This document shows, one piece after another, positions 9,863 through 46,559 of a DNA stretch of 64,000 nucleotides (position 1 is the first letter of the stretch; each line of letters starts with the position of its first letter). The notes under the pieces are model-generated. The model saw nothing but the letters and a program-made list of their open reading frames with translations. It was not told the DNA's origin and searched no databases. This DNA comes from Leucothrix pacifica (lineage in GTDB: Bacteria; Pseudomonadota; Gammaproteobacteria; Thiotrichales; Thiotrichaceae): NCBI RefSeq assembly GCF_003172875.1, contig NZ_QGKM01000010.1:1-64000 (forward strand), read 5' to 3'. The position numbers and the translations under genes were made by a program.

Positions 9863-11246
9863 TGACAGCTTCCGTCTTTTTAGAGCCCGCAGCGGTCTCA
9901 TCCTTTGACGCTTCAGCACTATCATCTGTTTTGGCTTCACCACCAACCACCACAGTCAGCATCGCATCAGGCTTAATACGGCGTTGCATCGCCTCTTTCG
10001 CCTCATCAAGGGTCACTGCATTGATTCGATCAGTAAAGGTATCCAGATAATTCAATGGCATACCATAAAAACCAATCATTTCAGCATAGTTACCAATATT
10101 ACTGTTACCCGCAACACCCATCGGGAACCCTCCGGTGATATTGAGTTTTGATTCTTCAATCTCAGCTTCAGTCGCACCATCTTTCAGATAAGTATTCAAC
10201 AATTCCGCCAGAGCTTCTTTACCTTCATCAATCTGATCCAGTTTAGTCTGCATGCCCATTACAAATGGGCCTAGCTCACGTGATGGCGAGAAATAACTGT
10301 AAACGCTGTAACTCAGACCGCGCTTCACACGAATCTCCTTCATAAGGCGAGAAGTAAAACCGCTGCCACCAAACGGGTGGTTCGCCAAATACAATTTGAA
10401 GTAATCTTTATCGCCACGCTTGTAACCAGGTTGCCCCATTAGTATGTGGGCCTGACTCGATGGAAACGGGATATGAATCGTCTTAGCCTCCGTTAATGGC
10501 TTTACCTCAGGAATTGGCTCTGGCTTTTTACCCGCAGGTAAAACCTCCGCAATACGCTTGGCCAGCAGCTCAGCCTCCTCACGATTCACATTACCGGTGA
10601 TGGTCAGCATGGCATTCTCTTCTACGATATAACGCTCATAAAATGCTTTCAGGTCTGCCGTGGTCATCGCAGCAATACTGTCTTCATAACCACCCACAGG
10701 GTTTGCATAGGGATGGTCACCATACAAATGTTTGTAAAACTCTCTCCCTGCGATGCTGCCCGGATTTTGTTTCTGCGCTTCAAAACCCACTTTCTTCTGC
10801 TTTTGCATACGCTCAAAGTCTGCCTGTGGGAACTCAGGCGACTCGATCACCGCTAGCCAATTGTCTACTGCAGATTTAAATGGCTTTTCTAGTGTGATAG
10901 TACGCAGCCCAATATTAGCCATATCGCGTGATGCATTGGTGTAGAAATTCGCACCAACATTCTCAAACACCTCTGCCAGTTTATTAGCATCCATGCCTGC
11001 CGCGCCTTTGTCCATCATCGCCATAGTCATGCTGGCAACACCGTATTGCTCGCCGTCACGTGCACTACCAGCATCAAAACTCAGGCTCAAATCCAACATC
11101 GGCAAATCATCAATCCCGACATAAAAAACGCGCAAACCAGTATCGGTTGTCCAGTTTTCTATTTTTGGTCCCGCTAAAGCATTCGTACTCAATAAAGCGA
11201 TGGTCGCTACTAAACAGCTCGCAGCTAACTTTTGAAATACTCGCAT
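9855..11246 (-). CDS. M16 family peptidase-like protein, inactive partner
   Basis: 463 residues with a signal peptide (about 1-25, cleavage after ALA) and two insulinase/M16 domains. The zinc motif HxxEH is absent: the equivalent helix reads VASMTMAMMDKGA. The C-terminal half keeps the Arg/Tyr pair region (VKRGLSYSVYSYF), which in two-subunit M16 enzymes contributes to substrate binding. It is therefore probably the non-catalytic subunit of the periplasmic heterodimer formed with the upstream gene. Its ATG shares one base with the upstream stop (TAATG), a typical layout for obligate partners. The C-terminus is Ala/Glu/Lys-rich and looks disordered. Confidence 0.9.
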   Translation of the reverse strand: MRVFQKLAASCLVATIALLSTNALAGPKIENWTTDTGLRVFYVGIDDLPMLDLSLSFDAGSARDGEQYGVASMTMAMMDKGAAGMDANKLAEVFENVGANFYTNASRDMANIGLRTITLEKPFKSAVDNWLAVIESPEFPQADFERMQKQKKVGFEAQKQNPGSIAGREFYKHLYGDHPYANPVGGYEDSIAAMTTADLKAFYERYIVEENAMLTITGNVNREEAELLAKRIAEVLPAGKKPEPIPEVKPLTEAKTIHIPFPSSQAHILMGQPGYKRGDKDYFKLYLANHPFGGSGFTSRLMKEIRVKRGLSYSVYSYFSPSRELGPFVMGMQTKLDQIDEGKEALAELLNTYLKDGATEAEIEESKLNITGGFPMGVAGNSNIGNYAEMIGFYGMPLNYLDTFTDRINAVTLDEAKEAMQRRIKPDAMLTVVVGGEAKTDDSAEASKDETAAGSKKTEAVSG

Positions 11247-37740: not shown

Positions 37741-38637
37741 TCAGTCATTACTATGCAAACTTTCATTCAAGCCGCCCCACAAACCGGAGTCAGTAGCAAC
37801 CGCTTCAACCGCACCGGACACACTATTACGGCGATACAGCAAACCAGATTTACCTGCTAATTCACGCGCAGCAACCACTTCACCTTCAGGCGTTTTAACC
37901 TTAGTACCCGCAGTGAGGTATAAACCAGACTCAATGATGCACTCATCGCCCAGCGGAATACCCAAACCAGAATTAGCACCTAACAGGCACTTCTCACCAA
38001 CTGAAATAATAGTCTTACCACCACCAGACAGCGTACCCATAGTAGACGCACCACCACCGATATCAGAGTTTTTACCAACAATCACACCTGCGCTAATGCG
38101 GCCTTCAACCATTGAATCACCCAGTGTACCTGCATTGAAGTTAACAAAACCTTCGTGCATCACTGTTGTACCTGATGCCAGATGCGCACCTAAACGAACA
38201 CGATCCGCATCACCGATACGCACACCTTCTGGCATGACGTAATCCGTCATACGTGGGAATTTGTCCACTGAAGTAATGGTGATGTGCTGATCTTCAGCAG
38301 CAATCAAACCACGCAACTCTTCGACAGTCGCTGGTAACACTGGTCCTGCTGAAGTCCATGCAACATTCGGCAACATACCGAACATGCCATCCAGATTGAT
38401 TTCATGTGGCTTGAAGGCACACTCAGACAACAAATGAAGCCTTAGATAAACGTCTTCCGTAGATGCTGGCGCTTCTGTCACATCGATTTCAATCTCAACA
38501 AAATCGCTTTTGATTACACCCACTTTCTGCGCTAAACAGCTTCTGGCGATCTCTTTGTTAGCACGCGGAAACCACGTATCAATTGTTTTTCCACTAGCAA
38601 CGTCAATATATCGATGACCAACACGCTTGATTGTCAT
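37741..38637 (-). CDS. dapD: 2,3,4,5-tetrahydropyridine-2,6-dicarboxylate N-succinyltransferase
   Basis: Succinyl transfer step of the diaminopimelate/lysine pathway. 298 residues with a left-handed beta-helix of hexapeptide repeats in the second half (VRIGDADRVRLGAHLASGTT, HEGFVNFNAGTLGDSMVEGR, VGKNSDIGGGASTMGTLSGG, GANSGLGIPLGDECIIESGL). It resembles the Pseudomonas/actinobacterial DapD subgroup more than the E. coli form, with a shorter N-terminal domain than the Pseudomonas protein. Transcribed alone; terminator present. A role in cell-wall precursor supply is expected. Confidence 0.93.
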   Translation of the reverse strand: MTIKRVGHRYIDVASGKTIDTWFPRANKEIARSCLAQKVGVIKSDFVEIEIDVTEAPASTEDVYLRLHLLSECAFKPHEINLDGMFGMLPNVAWTSAGPVLPATVEELRGLIAAEDQHITITSVDKFPRMTDYVMPEGVRIGDADRVRLGAHLASGTTVMHEGFVNFNAGTLGDSMVEGRISAGVIVGKNSDIGGGASTMGTLSGGGKTIISVGEKCLLGANSGLGIPLGDECIIESGLYLTAGTKVKTPEGEVVAARELAGKSGLLYRRNSVSGAVEAVATDSGLWGGLNESLHSND

Positions 38638-39036: not shown

Positions 39037-39138
39037 CTCTGATCTCCTAAACGATTAATCGTCAAGTGAAACCAAAGCCCCTCATCTGTAATAACTTTCG
39101 ATAATTCATATCACCATTTCTCTCAGCTCACCAAAGTA

Positions 39139-39236
39139 GCAGCTCACTGTGCTATTAAATAAGCGCCTTCCGAGTCGTTTAATGAGCTTGTCCATTAAAC
39201 AGGGAGGCGAAGTGTTTTCATAGCACAGTGCGCTGC
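39139..39236. repeat. Structured repeat element, copy A
   Basis: About 98 bp that folds as nested hairpins. The outer arms 39139-39154 and 39221-39236 pair at 15 of 16 positions; the middle arm is CGCCTTCC (39164-39171) / GGGAGGCG (39202-39209), and the inner arm GTTTAATG (39177-39184) / CATTAAAC (39193-39200). The core matches copy B at 45361-45460, while the outer arms do not match in sequence. Located immediately downstream of rtcB. Confidence 0.8.
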
Positions 39237-39240
39237 GACA

Positions 39241-40470
39241 TCACCCCTTTACACACACAACTTGTTTCAAAGTATGCACAATTTCAACCAGATCCTGCTG
39301 CGCAGCCATCACAGCCTCAATCGGCTTATAAGAAGCCGGTGTTTCATCCAACACACCGGCGTCTTTACGGCACTCAACACCCTCAATAGCCGCTAAATGC
39401 TCATCCATTGATACACGACGTTTTGCCTCAGTTCGTGACATCACACGTCCTGCACCGTGACTACAGCTGCAGAAACTTTCAGCATTACCCAGACCACGCA
39501 CAATGAATGACTTCGCACCCATGCTTCCGGGGATAATCCCCATTTCACCGGCTTGCGCACTCACTGCACCTTTACGCGTTACCCAGACATCTTTATCAAA
39601 ATGCTGTTCGCGGCTAATGTAATTATGGTGGCAATTCACCGCTTCAGTGCGTGCTTCAAATGGCTCATCAATGTTATTACGCAACACTTCAAGCGTACGC
39701 GCCATCATCACCTCACGATTCACCCGCGCATAATCCTGCGCCCATGACACCGCACTAATATACTCACCGAAGTGCTTACTCCCTTCCGGAATATAAGCCA
39801 GTTCCTTGTCCGGCAGATTAATAAACCAACGCTCCATATCTTTCTTGGCTTGGTTTATAAAATGCATACCGATACGGTTTCCAACACCACGCGATCCGCT
39901 ATGTAACATCACCCACACCGCGTCGTTTTCATCCAAACAAAGCTCGACGAAGTGGTTTCCGCTTCCCAGCGTACCGAGCTGATTCACGTTATTTCCGTTT
40001 TTCAAAAACGCATGCTTGTCTTGTAGCGCTGAAAATCCGTCTTTCAGTGATAACCAAGCCTGCATGACATCATCAGGGATATCTCCCCAGTTTCCGGTGT
40101 CTCGGCTTTTACCTTTTGCCATGAATCCGTGCGGTACATTCGCCTCGATACCGGAACGAATCGCAGCGAGTGAATCCGGTAATTGATCGGCACGCAAGCT
40201 GGTTTTCACCGCCATCATTCCACACCCTAAATCCACACCTACCGCCGCAGGAATCACCGCACCAATCGTTGGAATCACACTACCAATAGTGGCACCACGC
40301 CCCAAATGCACATCTGGCATCGCGGCGACCCATTTGTGTATAAATGGCATGGTCGACATATTGCGAAGCTGTTGACGTGAGTTATCGTCAAACTGTACAC
40401 CGCGTGTCCATGACTTTACGGGTACATTTTGAGTCTGGCTGTCGTACATCACTTCGTATGGAGTGTTCAT
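39241..40470 (-). CDS. rtcB: RNA-splicing ligase RtcB
   Basis: GTP- and Mn-dependent ligase joining 2',3'-cyclic phosphate or 3'-phosphate RNA ends to 5'-OH ends, used in RNA repair. 409 residues from the ATG at 40470; AAGGA 7 bp upstream favours it over the ATG at 40491, which overlaps that site. Metal ligands lie in GVDLGCGM, LGSGNHFVEL and HSGSRGVG. Guanylylation-site region CSHGAGRVMSR follows. Length is typical of the stand-alone bacterial enzyme. rtcA and the rtcR activator are not adjacent, and a structured repeat lies right after its stop. Confidence 0.94.
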   Translation of the reverse strand: MNTPYEVMYDSQTQNVPVKSWTRGVQFDDNSRQQLRNMSTMPFIHKWVAAMPDVHLGRGATIGSVIPTIGAVIPAAVGVDLGCGMMAVKTSLRADQLPDSLAAIRSGIEANVPHGFMAKGKSRDTGNWGDIPDDVMQAWLSLKDGFSALQDKHAFLKNGNNVNQLGTLGSGNHFVELCLDENDAVWVMLHSGSRGVGNRIGMHFINQAKKDMERWFINLPDKELAYIPEGSKHFGEYISAVSWAQDYARVNREVMMARTLEVLRNNIDEPFEARTEAVNCHHNYISREQHFDKDVWVTRKGAVSAQAGEMGIIPGSMGAKSFIVRGLGNAESFCSCSHGAGRVMSRTEAKRRVSMDEHLAAIEGVECRKDAGVLDETPASYKPIEAVMAAQQDLVEIVHTLKQVVCVKG

Positions 40471-40800
40471 ATCAATATCCTTGCTTTTCATTATTTTCAG
40501 ATATTACATTGCAGCTGCTATGCCAACTTTTATCAAAATCCCATATCATACTGATATTTATATATTTATCTGAAAACCAATAATTGCAGCACTACGTCTA
40601 ATATTAATTTTTAAATATTTTTAAGGGTATTTTATATCCAAATAGATAACCCAAGAGACTCTATACTGTTTGCAACGCCCAATCCCCTCTCCAACCCTCA
40701 AAGCATCTTCTACTCCAATCAATTGCTGCGGCCTATTGCCAAATTACACACAACATCTCATCATTGAGTGCTAACCATTACCCACTTAATAAGGAAAACC
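40471..40800. other. Intergenic region between divergent rtcB and cyclotransferase-like gene
   Basis: 330 bp, AT-rich in the rtcB-proximal half. Nothing that I can support as a gene, RNA or repeat; the small frame crossing 40344-40583 is the shadow of rtcB. It presumably holds the divergent promoters. Confidence 0.4.
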
Positions 40801-43773: not shown

Positions 43774-44001
43774 AATATTCCGTTGTTGTTGTTCGGTTGG
43801 CCCGCTGCTACATCCAGAAGCAGCTAAATTTCAACTTCGTCCTATAGTTCTGATGCTCGAGTCGCATGCGATATCGCTAAAACACCACCAAAACCCATAG
43901 CCATGAGAGGTAGTAGAGAGAGAGCGGGATTTGCGAAAAAAATGTTCCCATCGAAGATGGCATTTTTGTAGCAAATACCGCACTCTCTACGGCCCACTAA
44001 A

Positions 44002-45306
44002 TCAAGACTTACACTCACGCTCAGTGAGTTTGTTCTCTTTGGCATATGCCGCAGAATCCTCTGCAATCAGTGGATCGATAATGTCGCGGTCAGATGCAAC
44101 GAAGTCTGTAATCAGGCTCCATGTTTTGGTTTTTGCATCCCACTGCTGGATTGCTGCCAAACCTGGTCCACCGTGGTTCTCACACGTCACGTTGATTTCA
44201 GGCGCAAAGCCTTTCAGCCCTAACGCTTCCATACGCGCATTATCAACTTTGAGTGACTCCATACCGTCACGCATTTGGCCACTAGTGATTTCTTTAGTAT
44301 TGAACATCTTTTGAGCATTAGCTGCTGCTTCCGCTGCCAGAACCGCTGCATACATACCGCGGTTGTACAATGCGGTTCCGATATTGCTGCCATCTCCCGC
44401 TGCTTTACCGGTATCTGCTACGTACTTTTTGATGTCATCAAAGATTGGATAGTCAGTCCCCACACCATGGAAGGTCACCGCCTTATAACCATTGGCCTTA
44501 TCACCTGAAGGCAATACATCGTTCTCAGAACCTGACCACCAAATACCGATAAACTTATCCATTGGGAAACGGATGTTTCCGGCTTCTTTGATCGCCACCT
44601 GATTCATGACTCCCCAACCGTACATAAGCACGTAATCAGGACGCTCACGACGGATCTGCAACCACTGTGATTTCTGCTCCTGACCAGGGTGATCGACAGG
44701 CAATAAGGTCAGCTTAAACCCATCTCTTTTAGCCAGCTCTTCAAGGGTACGAATCGGCTCTTTACCATAGGCAGAGTTGTGATAAACCAAGGCAATGTTC
44801 TTACCTTTGAGATCGCCTTTTTCCATATCTGACACGTGCTTCATAATGACAGACGCAGCATCCCAGTAGGTACCAGGGTAGTTAAAGACGTGACTAAACA
44901 CCTTACCGTTAGCGGCTGAAGTACGTCCGTAACCCATAGTGTGCATTGGGATATCATCAGCCGTTACTTTAGGAATCAGCTGATAAGTAATACCGGTTGA
45001 AAGCGGCTGGTATACCAAAGCGCCCTGGCCTTTAGTCGACTCGTAGCACTCAACACCTTTCTGTGTGTTGTACGCGGTCTCACACTCCGGCGTGACTGCT
45101 TTGACACCACCGATACCGCCATCACGCTCATTAAGCAATGTGAAGTAGTCAGCATAGCCATCGGCGAACTCAGTTCCATTCGGGCCATAAGGGCCGGTAC
45201 GATAGCTCAACATTGGGAATGTCAGGTCTGCCATCGCTGGCACAGCTGTCGCCATGATCGTTGCAGCAACCACTGCTGCACTGATTGATTTCAATTTAAC
45301 TTTCAT
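44002..45306 (-). CDS. ABC transporter substrate-binding protein, branched-chain type
   Basis: Periplasmic receptor of 434 residues. The start at 45306 is set by a strong GGAGGAAG; the frame continues upstream by 8 residues. A Sec signal peptide (about 1-27, AVPAMA then cleavage) precedes a type I periplasmic-binding fold of the LivJ/Peripla_BP_6 kind, with TGPYGPNGTEFADGYADYF near the N-terminus in place of the amino-acid-binding loop. Ligand class therefore differs from leucine receptors; relatives are linked to aromatic or branched carboxylates. Cysteine pairs in the sequence may form disulfides. A structured repeat (copy B) lies upstream. Confidence 0.9.
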   Translation of the reverse strand: MKVKLKSISAAVVAATIMATAVPAMADLTFPMLSYRTGPYGPNGTEFADGYADYFTLLNERDGGIGGVKAVTPECETAYNTQKGVECYESTKGQGALVYQPLSTGITYQLIPKVTADDIPMHTMGYGRTSAANGKVFSHVFNYPGTYWDAASVIMKHVSDMEKGDLKGKNIALVYHNSAYGKEPIRTLEELAKRDGFKLTLLPVDHPGQEQKSQWLQIRRERPDYVLMYGWGVMNQVAIKEAGNIRFPMDKFIGIWWSGSENDVLPSGDKANGYKAVTFHGVGTDYPIFDDIKKYVADTGKAAGDGSNIGTALYNRGMYAAVLAAEAAANAQKMFNTKEITSGQMRDGMESLKVDNARMEALGLKGFAPEINVTCENHGGPGLAAIQQWDAKTKTWSLITDFVASDRDIIDPLIAEDSAAYAKENKLTERECKS

Positions 45307-45360
45307 TTGTACTTCCTCCAAATAAAACATTTACGCCAATAATCCGACGTTATTTCTAAT

Positions 45361-45460
45361 GCAGCGGGTAATCATTTAGCAGAATAAGCGCCTTCCGACT
45401 CGTTTAATGATTCACCATTAAACACAGGCGGCGAAGCGTCTATGCTAAATGATTGCCTGC
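45361..45460. repeat. Structured repeat element, copy B
   Basis: About 100 bp in the gap between the livM-like and receptor genes. The outer arms are AATCATTTAGCA (45370-45381) / TGCTAAATGATT (45443-45454), perfect over 12 bp and extended by GCAG (45361-45364) / CTGC (45457-45460). The inner arm is GTTTAATG (45402-45409) / CATTAAAC (45416-45423), and the shared strand AATAAGCGCCTTCCGA covers 45384-45399. The core is the same as copy A; the outer arms are different but self-complementary. Confidence 0.8.
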
Positions 45461-45482
45461 GACACAAATACACCTGACCGGG

Positions 45483-46559
45483 TTAATGCGGGAATGGCCA
45501 GAGACGTAACTTTTCCTTAGTCATGCGCCACAGCTGAGCAAGCCCGTGTGGCTCTACAATTAAGAAGAACATAATCAACGCACCAATAAACAGAAGTTCA
45601 AGGTGTGCCGCCAAGTCAGCAGGCCAACCGAAGCCACCCACCATGATGTTCTTCATTAATACTGGTACTAACACTAAGAATGCCGCACCTAAAAAGCTGC
45701 CTAAGATACTGCCGAGTCCACCGACAATTACCATAAACAACACTAAGAAAGACTTATCGATACCAAACGCTTCGGTTGGCTCAGCTGAGCCTAAGTAAAC
45801 ACCAAAAAGCATGGCACCAGACATACCGATATAGAAGGAGCTGACAGCAAATGCAGACAACTTCGCTTGAAGTGGCGGTACACCAATAATTTCTGCAGCG
45901 ATATCCATATCACGTATCGCCATCCACGAGCGACCAATACGGCCTCGCGTCAGGTTGCGCGCGATAAAAGCAAAAATAGTTACCAAGGTCAGGCAGAATA
46001 AATAAGTTGCCCAAGGTGGTGCTGATGCGCCAGTGATGGGTACACCAAACATCAGTCGTTCAGGCGAAGTGATCATTCCTGACGCTGAGTTGTTGTAGAA
46101 CCATGGAATCTTATTAAACATCCAAACCAGAAAGAACTGAGCGGCCAGTGTTGCCACTGCTAAATAGAATCCCTTGATTCGTAAACTGGGCAAACCAAAA
46201 GCGATCCCTACTACCGCCGTAATCAGGCCTGCCAGTATTACAATAATGAATATATTTAGTCCCGGAAAGGCCACCATCAGCTTGTAACAAGCGTAAGCAC
46301 CCACTGCCATGAAACCGCCCGTTCCGAGGCTTACCTGACCACAATAACCGGTCAGTATATTTAAGCCTAACGCTGCCATTGACCAAACCAGAAACGGTAG
46401 TAACACCGACTTTTCCCAGTAGTCATTGATAAAGAACGGTACCACTAAGAATGCAATCGCCAATACACCCCACACCCAATAGCGGTCTAGTTTGATTGGG
46501 AAAGACTGCTGATCCTTTGCGTAAGAGGTTTTAAAATCACCTGCTTCTCTATAAAACAT
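45483..46559 (-). CDS. ABC transporter permease, LivM-like
   Basis: Inner-membrane permease of the HAAT importer, 358 residues with about nine transmembrane segments and the family motif LNILTGYCGQVSLGTGGFMAVGAY near residues 63-86. The EAA-like loop reads WMAIRDMDIAAEIIGV, contacting the ATPases. It begins 3 bp after the LivH-like stop codon, so the two permeases are co-translated. The C-terminal end GLAQLWRMTKEKLRLWPF is typical. Substrate unknown. Confidence 0.92.
   Translation of the reverse strand: MFYREAGDFKTSYAKDQQSFPIKLDRYWVWGVLAIAFLVVPFFINDYWEKSVLLPFLVWSMAALGLNILTGYCGQVSLGTGGFMAVGAYACYKLMVAFPGLNIFIIVILAGLITAVVGIAFGLPSLRIKGFYLAVATLAAQFFLVWMFNKIPWFYNNSASGMITSPERLMFGVPITGASAPPWATYLFCLTLVTIFAFIARNLTRGRIGRSWMAIRDMDIAAEIIGVPPLQAKLSAFAVSSFYIGMSGAMLFGVYLGSAEPTEAFGIDKSFLVLFMVIVGGLGSILGSFLGAAFLVLVPVLMKNIMVGGFGWPADLAAHLELLFIGALIMFFLIVEPHGLAQLWRMTKEKLRLWPFPH

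Follow-up and report, generated by a model that had tools for sequence, protein, structure and literature searches.

Dispersed intergenic repeats sharing a predicted stem-loop have been described as stem-loop sequence (SLS) families, 92 of which were reported in a survey of 40 genomes (PMC2267715). The YPAL/RU-2, ERIC, NEMIS and RUP elements are likewise small, intergenic and stem-loop forming, YPAL (~168 bp) carrying internal inverted repeats and having targets that span or adjoin a dyad symmetry (PMC2229807). REP sequences, tagged by GTAG/CGTC, measure 20-40 bp, have stems of 5-13 bp and include subfamilies with alternative, still complementary stem residues (PMC3733652). Here we describe two hairpin copies, A and B, found in a 64,000-nt stretch of Leucothrix pacifica DNA (contig NZ_QGKM01000010.1, positions 1 to 64,000 of the forward strand; the window hereafter). 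A and B are members of a family of intergenic hairpin repeats, each about 80-130 bp long, that has few copies and is restricted to one genus; with dispersed intergenic copies sharing a common stem-loop, the family belongs to the stem-loop-sequence or intergenic hairpin repeat kind. Its likeness to the SLS families, and to YPAL and ERIC, is drawn from their descriptions, and YPAL differs from it in size. Variation of the arms from copy to copy, a feature of the present family, is not mentioned for the Yersinia elements in the portion of that report drawn on here (PMC2229807). REP sequences resemble the present family in their alternative stem residues and in their placement relative to genes; they differ from it in size and in the length of the outer stem (about 16-17 bp here), and the family has few copies and no Y1 transposase in G003, a complete genome of the genus. 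In addition, frequent G·T pairing is reported for REP (PMC3733652), whereas in the present family G·T hardly exceeds A·C. No earlier description of the family was found among the open-access papers listed by our searches or in Rfam.

Copy A occupies positions 39139..39240 and copy B 45361..45464, both with the core on the plus strand and both standing where the sequence-only reading had placed them; the core words that it gave as common to the two copies are exact. Base-by-base alignment revealed that each copy is a single long hairpin and that both follow a common plan in a common register, consisting of a 17-bp outer stem, an internal loop (AATAAG on one side, GAAGNG on the opposite one), a short stem of CGCC with GGCG and, innermost, the hairpin GTTTAATG/CATTAAAC. 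In copy A the left outer arm (39139..39155, 17 nt) and the right one (39220..39236, 17 nt) flank a conserved core (39158..39219) made of AATAAGCGCCTTCC, a loop insert (39177..39200) and GGAGGCGAAG plus a spacer; the insert, which holds the inner hairpin, is different or absent in many other copies. The corresponding 17-nt arms of copy B lie at 45364..45380 and 45444..45460. Each arm pairs with its own partner, as had been claimed, at 16 of 17 positions in A and at all 17 in B (two of them G·T). The further claim that the outer arms differ completely was too strong, since 12 of the 17 pairs differ between A and B and 5 are identical. Both copies fold well below the mean of 200 dinucleotide shuffles, the core strand giving z values of -7.35 for A and -6.45 for B, and the opposite strand -6.34 and -3.66, respectively. 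Sequences resembling (C)CAAA(G/C)TA(A)GG were seen by eye near several copies (39129..39138 at copy A), a weak signal that possibly marks an outer end of the element lying beyond our models.

When searched for with up to 3 mismatches, GCGCCTTCCGANTCGTTTAATGA was found only in A and B, both in the window (0 occurrences in 100 shuffles) and in the whole 5.02-Mb genome, and exact or near-exact core searches gave no match in 56 other genomes. Covariance models did uncover copies beyond these two, in this genome and in its genus. A model built from A and B (R1) detected relatives within the same genus, and a second one, built from 11 short copies, of which G003 supplied 10 and the window's genome, G000, the remaining 1 (row L035 of their alignment is shifted by one base), found 6 copies in G000, 11 in G003 and copies in 6 of the 7 genomes of the genus. 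A third model (R3) comprised 31 copies. Outside the genus, none of the 56 other genomes of the taxonomic family carried copies (at E 0.01, 6 of the 63 genomes were positive, each of them from the genus; first look capped at 74 scored candidates per genome), and a class-wide R3 search gave a single positive among 369 genomes, the window's own (first look capped at 11 scored candidates per genome). Rfam returned no family at gathering score for A or B, and a scan of viral sequences for the core gave no match. Weak R1 matches in two other genera (L013, L020 and L025 in g3; L014 in g8) were dropped as belonging to a separate palindrome family with the core CGCCCTTCGACTCCGCTCAGG; this palindromic repeat of sister genera lies inside a longer shared stem at three loci. 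The single match in a collection of genome contigs, in Paenibacillus (L005), lacked matching arms when inspected by eye and seems fortuitous.

In most copies the core approximates to AATAAGCGCCTTCCGAC and GGAGGCGAAGCGTTT on either side of a loop insert, and its length with the insert is 35-83 nt. The core is conserved, asymmetric and imperfectly paired, and its loop tip accepts inserts that vary widely in length; the inner hairpin found in A and B is thus one variant of the loop insert, outside the common core. The outer arms are complementary and changeable. In a MAFFT alignment of 11 copies, G003 contributing 10 of them, two-sided changes affected 15 of the 16 outer pairs, 92.0% of positions over all 26 pairs were paired (73.6% in shuffles) and the structure as a whole had a covariation score of 0.473 (0.138 shuffled), while the 31-copy model alignment, which leans towards its own structure, showed two-sided change at each of the 16 outer pairs, with 195 two-sided against 8 one-sided cells and 95.6% pairing; these counts, and those of arm pairing that follow, are inflated by the mutual relatedness of the copies, and none of the figures is a probability. 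Anchoring on the core, we counted Watson-Crick pairs between each copy's own arms in 38 of 39 copies and obtained a mean of 14.5, a median of 15 and a minimum of 8 out of 16; arms taken from different copies gave a mean of 7.9 (standard deviation 1.5), with at least 13 pairs in only 16 of 1,406 combinations, the best of 25 small offsets being used in both cases. Three low-scoring copies (L070:191, L070:5979 and L051), possibly palindromes of some other type, entered this count and the context count below and were not used for R3; L067:10202, which stands at a contig end, entered both counts as well. L057 was left out of both, of the present one because it lacked flank. Of the two checks that the sequence-only reading set for itself, neither went against it: further copies exist, and the arms are paired in nearly all of them, with L012, L019 and L067:10202 as exceptions. 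The last of these (10202-10240 of G000:C30) is a core with unpaired arms at the extreme end of a contig and is probably an assembly join of two copies.

Copies occupying the same site allowed arm changes to be followed more closely. For these pairs a global alignment mis-registered several arms, and the core-anchored count was used instead; there L018/L048 is shifted by roughly a base and was not relied on. G003 carries an element at the same junction as copy B, between a livM-type permease gene and a substrate-binding-protein gene, and in the same orientation relative to the genes, from which we infer that the two copies descend from one insertion. Between G000 and G003, 9 of the 16 outer pairs of this element differ, in one distal block, and the 7 inner pairs are identical; all nine differing pairs are standard in both species and 6 of them were altered on both sides. 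Similarly, 5 of 6 differing pairs in L046/L052 and 7 of 8 in L043/L066:6269, each with homologous flanking genes, are standard in both members. The sequence-only reading had also considered insertion of a core into differing pre-existing palindromes, of the kind reported for YPAL (PMC2229807), which would account for arms that vary from copy to copy and could draw on the livM/substrate-binding-protein junction of another genome of the genus (G002), where the element is absent and a different hairpin is present. However, the arms of different loci and species share a weak consensus of their own (26 of 30 copies have T at one arm position and 24 of 30 have G at the foot), are mostly of one length and in one register, and differ while still paired at what appears to be a single inherited insertion, so that we consider this origin very improbable.

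The position of the copies relative to stop codons is not random. Most are placed downstream of genes, and one end is often at a stop codon. With open reading frames (ORFs) of at least 100 aa called mechanically, and several of the seven genus genomes being incomplete, 20 of 45 copies lay between tandem genes, 15 between convergent and 1 between divergent ones, 7 at contig edges and 2 inside ORFs. Of the stop codons no more than 20 bp away from the model edge, 18 faced one end and 4 the other; at 21-300 bp the numbers were 7 and 23, respectively (Fisher p 5e-5, for copies that are not independent and with weak ones included). In the close-stop cases the mRNA usually enters the strand opposite to the core strand. 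This is so for both copies in the window: the stop codon of rtcB (RNA ligase; 39241..40491, minus strand) abuts copy A at the model edge (R1 match 39136-39240), and that of the livM-type permease gene (45483..46559, minus strand) lies 19 nt from the edge of copy B, downstream of which follows the gene for a branched-chain amino-acid-type ABC (ATP-binding cassette) substrate-binding protein (44002..45330, minus strand). All gene names are read from sequence and operon, those of rtcB and of the neighbour at 37741-38637 excepted.

We tentatively favour a genus-specific intergenic hairpin family whose members act as stem-loops at gene ends, a role suggested by their sequence and placement. A transcript entering the element would form a very stable stem-loop directly past the gene, which might shield or define the 3' end of the mRNA or uncouple operon partners, as livM and the substrate-binding-protein gene at copy B. 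Being able to fold on either strand, the hairpin could serve genes from both sides. The core would be the part recognised by some factor and the arms would need only to pair, their pairing being upheld by selection for the hairpin, by template switching during replication (hairpin-templated correction) or by both. Several results weigh against this proposal, as does the relatedness of the copies behind the covariation figures. Watson-Crick pairs number just 10, 12 and 8 of 16 in L012, L019 and L067:10202. In 9 of the 20 tandem copies the genes run against the core strand and in the other 11 they run with it, hence there is no general orientation rule, and the stop-codon bias may come partly from an unmodelled 5' extension of the element. 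Nor does either neighbouring gene need the element generally: a link to RtcB was rejected because an R3 element was present at 1 of 30 rtcB loci, the window's own (a few of these loci being cut near the gene end), and only 2 of 11 substrate-binding-protein loci in the taxonomic family (those of G000 and G003) have an R3 match, the locus of G002 lacking it. A terminator scan made no call at A or B, though with loops limited to 3-8 nt it is ill suited to long composite hairpins and would hardly have detected them; by eye, most flanks of the 31-copy alignment have no evident T-run. Lastly, the closest pairs of copies are uncompensated: in L074/L019, whose flanking proteins are 98-99% identical and for which the global alignment is sound, 4 mapped pairs differ and none is two-sided, and the only difference between the stems of L056 and L059 is one G-C to G·T step.

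The mismatches that remain in the stems bear on what keeps the arms complementary. Selection on a single RNA strand is expected to leave G·U commoner than A·C on that strand. Among 38 copies we counted 16 G·T, 15 A·C and 25 other mismatches, and in the 31-copy alignment 14, 10 and 11, respectively. The compensating change, in which the sequence-only reading saw a possible mark of a selected RNA or cruciform, is real and strong, but with G·T about as frequent as A·C, a selected RNA structure as its sole cause is doubtful. Such strand-symmetric mismatches point to upkeep at the level of DNA, and the pattern fits processes acting on DNA or on both strands, namely template switching, or selection that favours a hairpin readable from either side. 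The same lack of a G·T excess speaks against a family of trans-acting small RNAs in which each copy would be its own hairpin RNA gene. The very stable fold, the RNA-like covariation, the dispersed, low-copy distribution and the mixed orientation would all suit such genes; promoter-like sites, however, stand at chance level (12 found and 11.8 expected in the stretch of the window scanned) and there is no Rfam match, and we regard this explanation as highly unlikely.

Template switching at quasi-palindromes is known in E. coli (PMC7202029) and has been proposed to maintain RNA hairpins (PMC8794818). There, too, compensatory changes span several bases and stems are perfect with no surplus of G·U; the hairpins treated in these works are RNA genes or reporters, unlike the bacterial intergenic repeat family studied here (PMC8794818, PMC7202029). 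Relative to the commonest pair of each column, the two-sided Watson-Crick changes in our alignment comprise 74 transitions and 115 transversions, although saturation also pushes in that direction. Together with the strand-symmetric mismatches, the few one-sided cells family-wide (8 against 195) and the block of nine outermost pairs that distinguishes copy B in G000 and G003 while the seven inner pairs are identical, and given the mechanism just cited, this could indicate that the family is an old, functionless relic with arms kept complementary solely by template-switch correction of quasi-palindromes. Correction alone, however, should yield a perfect palindrome or drift, whereas the core has stayed conserved and imperfect; furthermore, the closest pairs are one-sided and without block copying, and the placement relative to stop codons is non-random. 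For these reasons a pure relic seems unlikely to us. In an intermediate possibility, the arms would be rewritten in mirrored blocks by template switching and the core held by selection, the two-sided change being mainly mutational. This we consider rather unlikely, the uncompensated closest pairs counting against it too. Within G003, the nearest copies differ at 2-3 outer pairs, and three related copies (L060) show one two-sided and one or two other changes. As the closest pairs are one-sided, pairing may be restored stepwise, via selection or repair. We accordingly favour a functional core and stem, in the upkeep of which template copying may have a share; template switching alone would not suffice, because the core remains conserved and imperfect.

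The family could also be a non-autonomous mobile element whose enzyme recognises a folded single strand, as for REP or attC, with the bulged core as the recognition site, arms needed only as a stem, and gene ends representing a choice or a tolerance of target. The structure-only arms and the conserved, bulged core would agree with this, as would the absence of an orientation rule in tandem contexts (9 and 11), the clustering of copies (9 of 11 in G003 lie less than 7 kb from another), the adjacent inverted pairs at L062, L043 and L052, and the livM/substrate-binding-protein site that is filled in some species and empty in others. At L043 (G004:C269, 1501-1740) two elements sit about 53 bp apart at convergent gene ends; their apparent counterparts at L066 (G006:C33, 6269-14473) are separated by about 8 kb with five ORFs. 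At L012 (G004:C143, 17-2085) a single element with poorly paired arms separates livM- and livF-type genes, and the substrate-binding-protein gene that other genomes carry between these two is absent there. No filled and empty sites were close enough for a target duplication to be read, and no systematic search for one was made.

A suitable enzyme was, on the other hand, not consistently found. No GTAG or CGTC tag is fixed at the hairpin foot in the 31 aligned copies, although by eye a minority have GTAG close to the 5' foot, and the Y1 (IS200/RAYT-type) transposase that partners REP (PF01797) was found in just one of the 7 genus genomes, several of which are incomplete (G000, 3 matches) and not in G003 with its 11 copies; by those tests the family is not REP. 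Integron attC sites are imperfect hairpins whose structure is kept while the sequence varies, with stem-end boxes R'' (RYYYAAC) and R' (GTTRRRY). By eye, neither box was seen at the stem ends in the core columns of the 31 copies, the right-hand core reading GTTT followed mostly by T or A instead of the GTTRRRY of the attC box, and the gene maps of 18 sources revealed no cassette array around the copies. An integron integrase scored over the cut-off in 3 of the 7 genus genomes, including G004 and G006 and not G003, and repeats near two of these three genes formed no cassette array. The integrase gene in G000 (C102, L134, 2293-3228; TIGR02249, over the cut-off) is accompanied by an imperfect palindrome resembling attC by eye (~822-916). 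The R3 match to this palindrome is weak (20.7 bits, E 0.0016 in 43 kb), about as strong as the R1 match to another hairpin of the window (19.4 bits). For the features tested, the view that the element is not a REP, BIME or attC site therefore held, and neither a REP/RAYT nor an integron hypothesis was supported. With, in addition, no fresh copies seen in G003, mobility of this type appears to be a rather unlikely explanation.

The other hairpin just mentioned (43914..43990, minus strand) is a second long, imperfect one lying between the substrate-binding-protein and livF-type genes; it has no R3 match and is at most a possible member of the family. Hairpins of other sequence occur, by eye, at this junction (43774-44001 in the window) at many loci of the taxonomic family, which suggests a need for some hairpin there. 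Positions 1-217 of the window belong to a minus-strand 16S rRNA gene that the window edge truncates, leaving its 5' part (model positions 1-216).

Covariation is commonly taken as proof of a selected RNA structure. By combining extreme covariation with strand-neutral mismatches, the present family could help to separate two causes of covariation in nature, and screens for structured RNA in genomes of this genus will have to mask or model it. It also offers a natural case in which to ask how long hairpins keep their pairing as they change in sequence.
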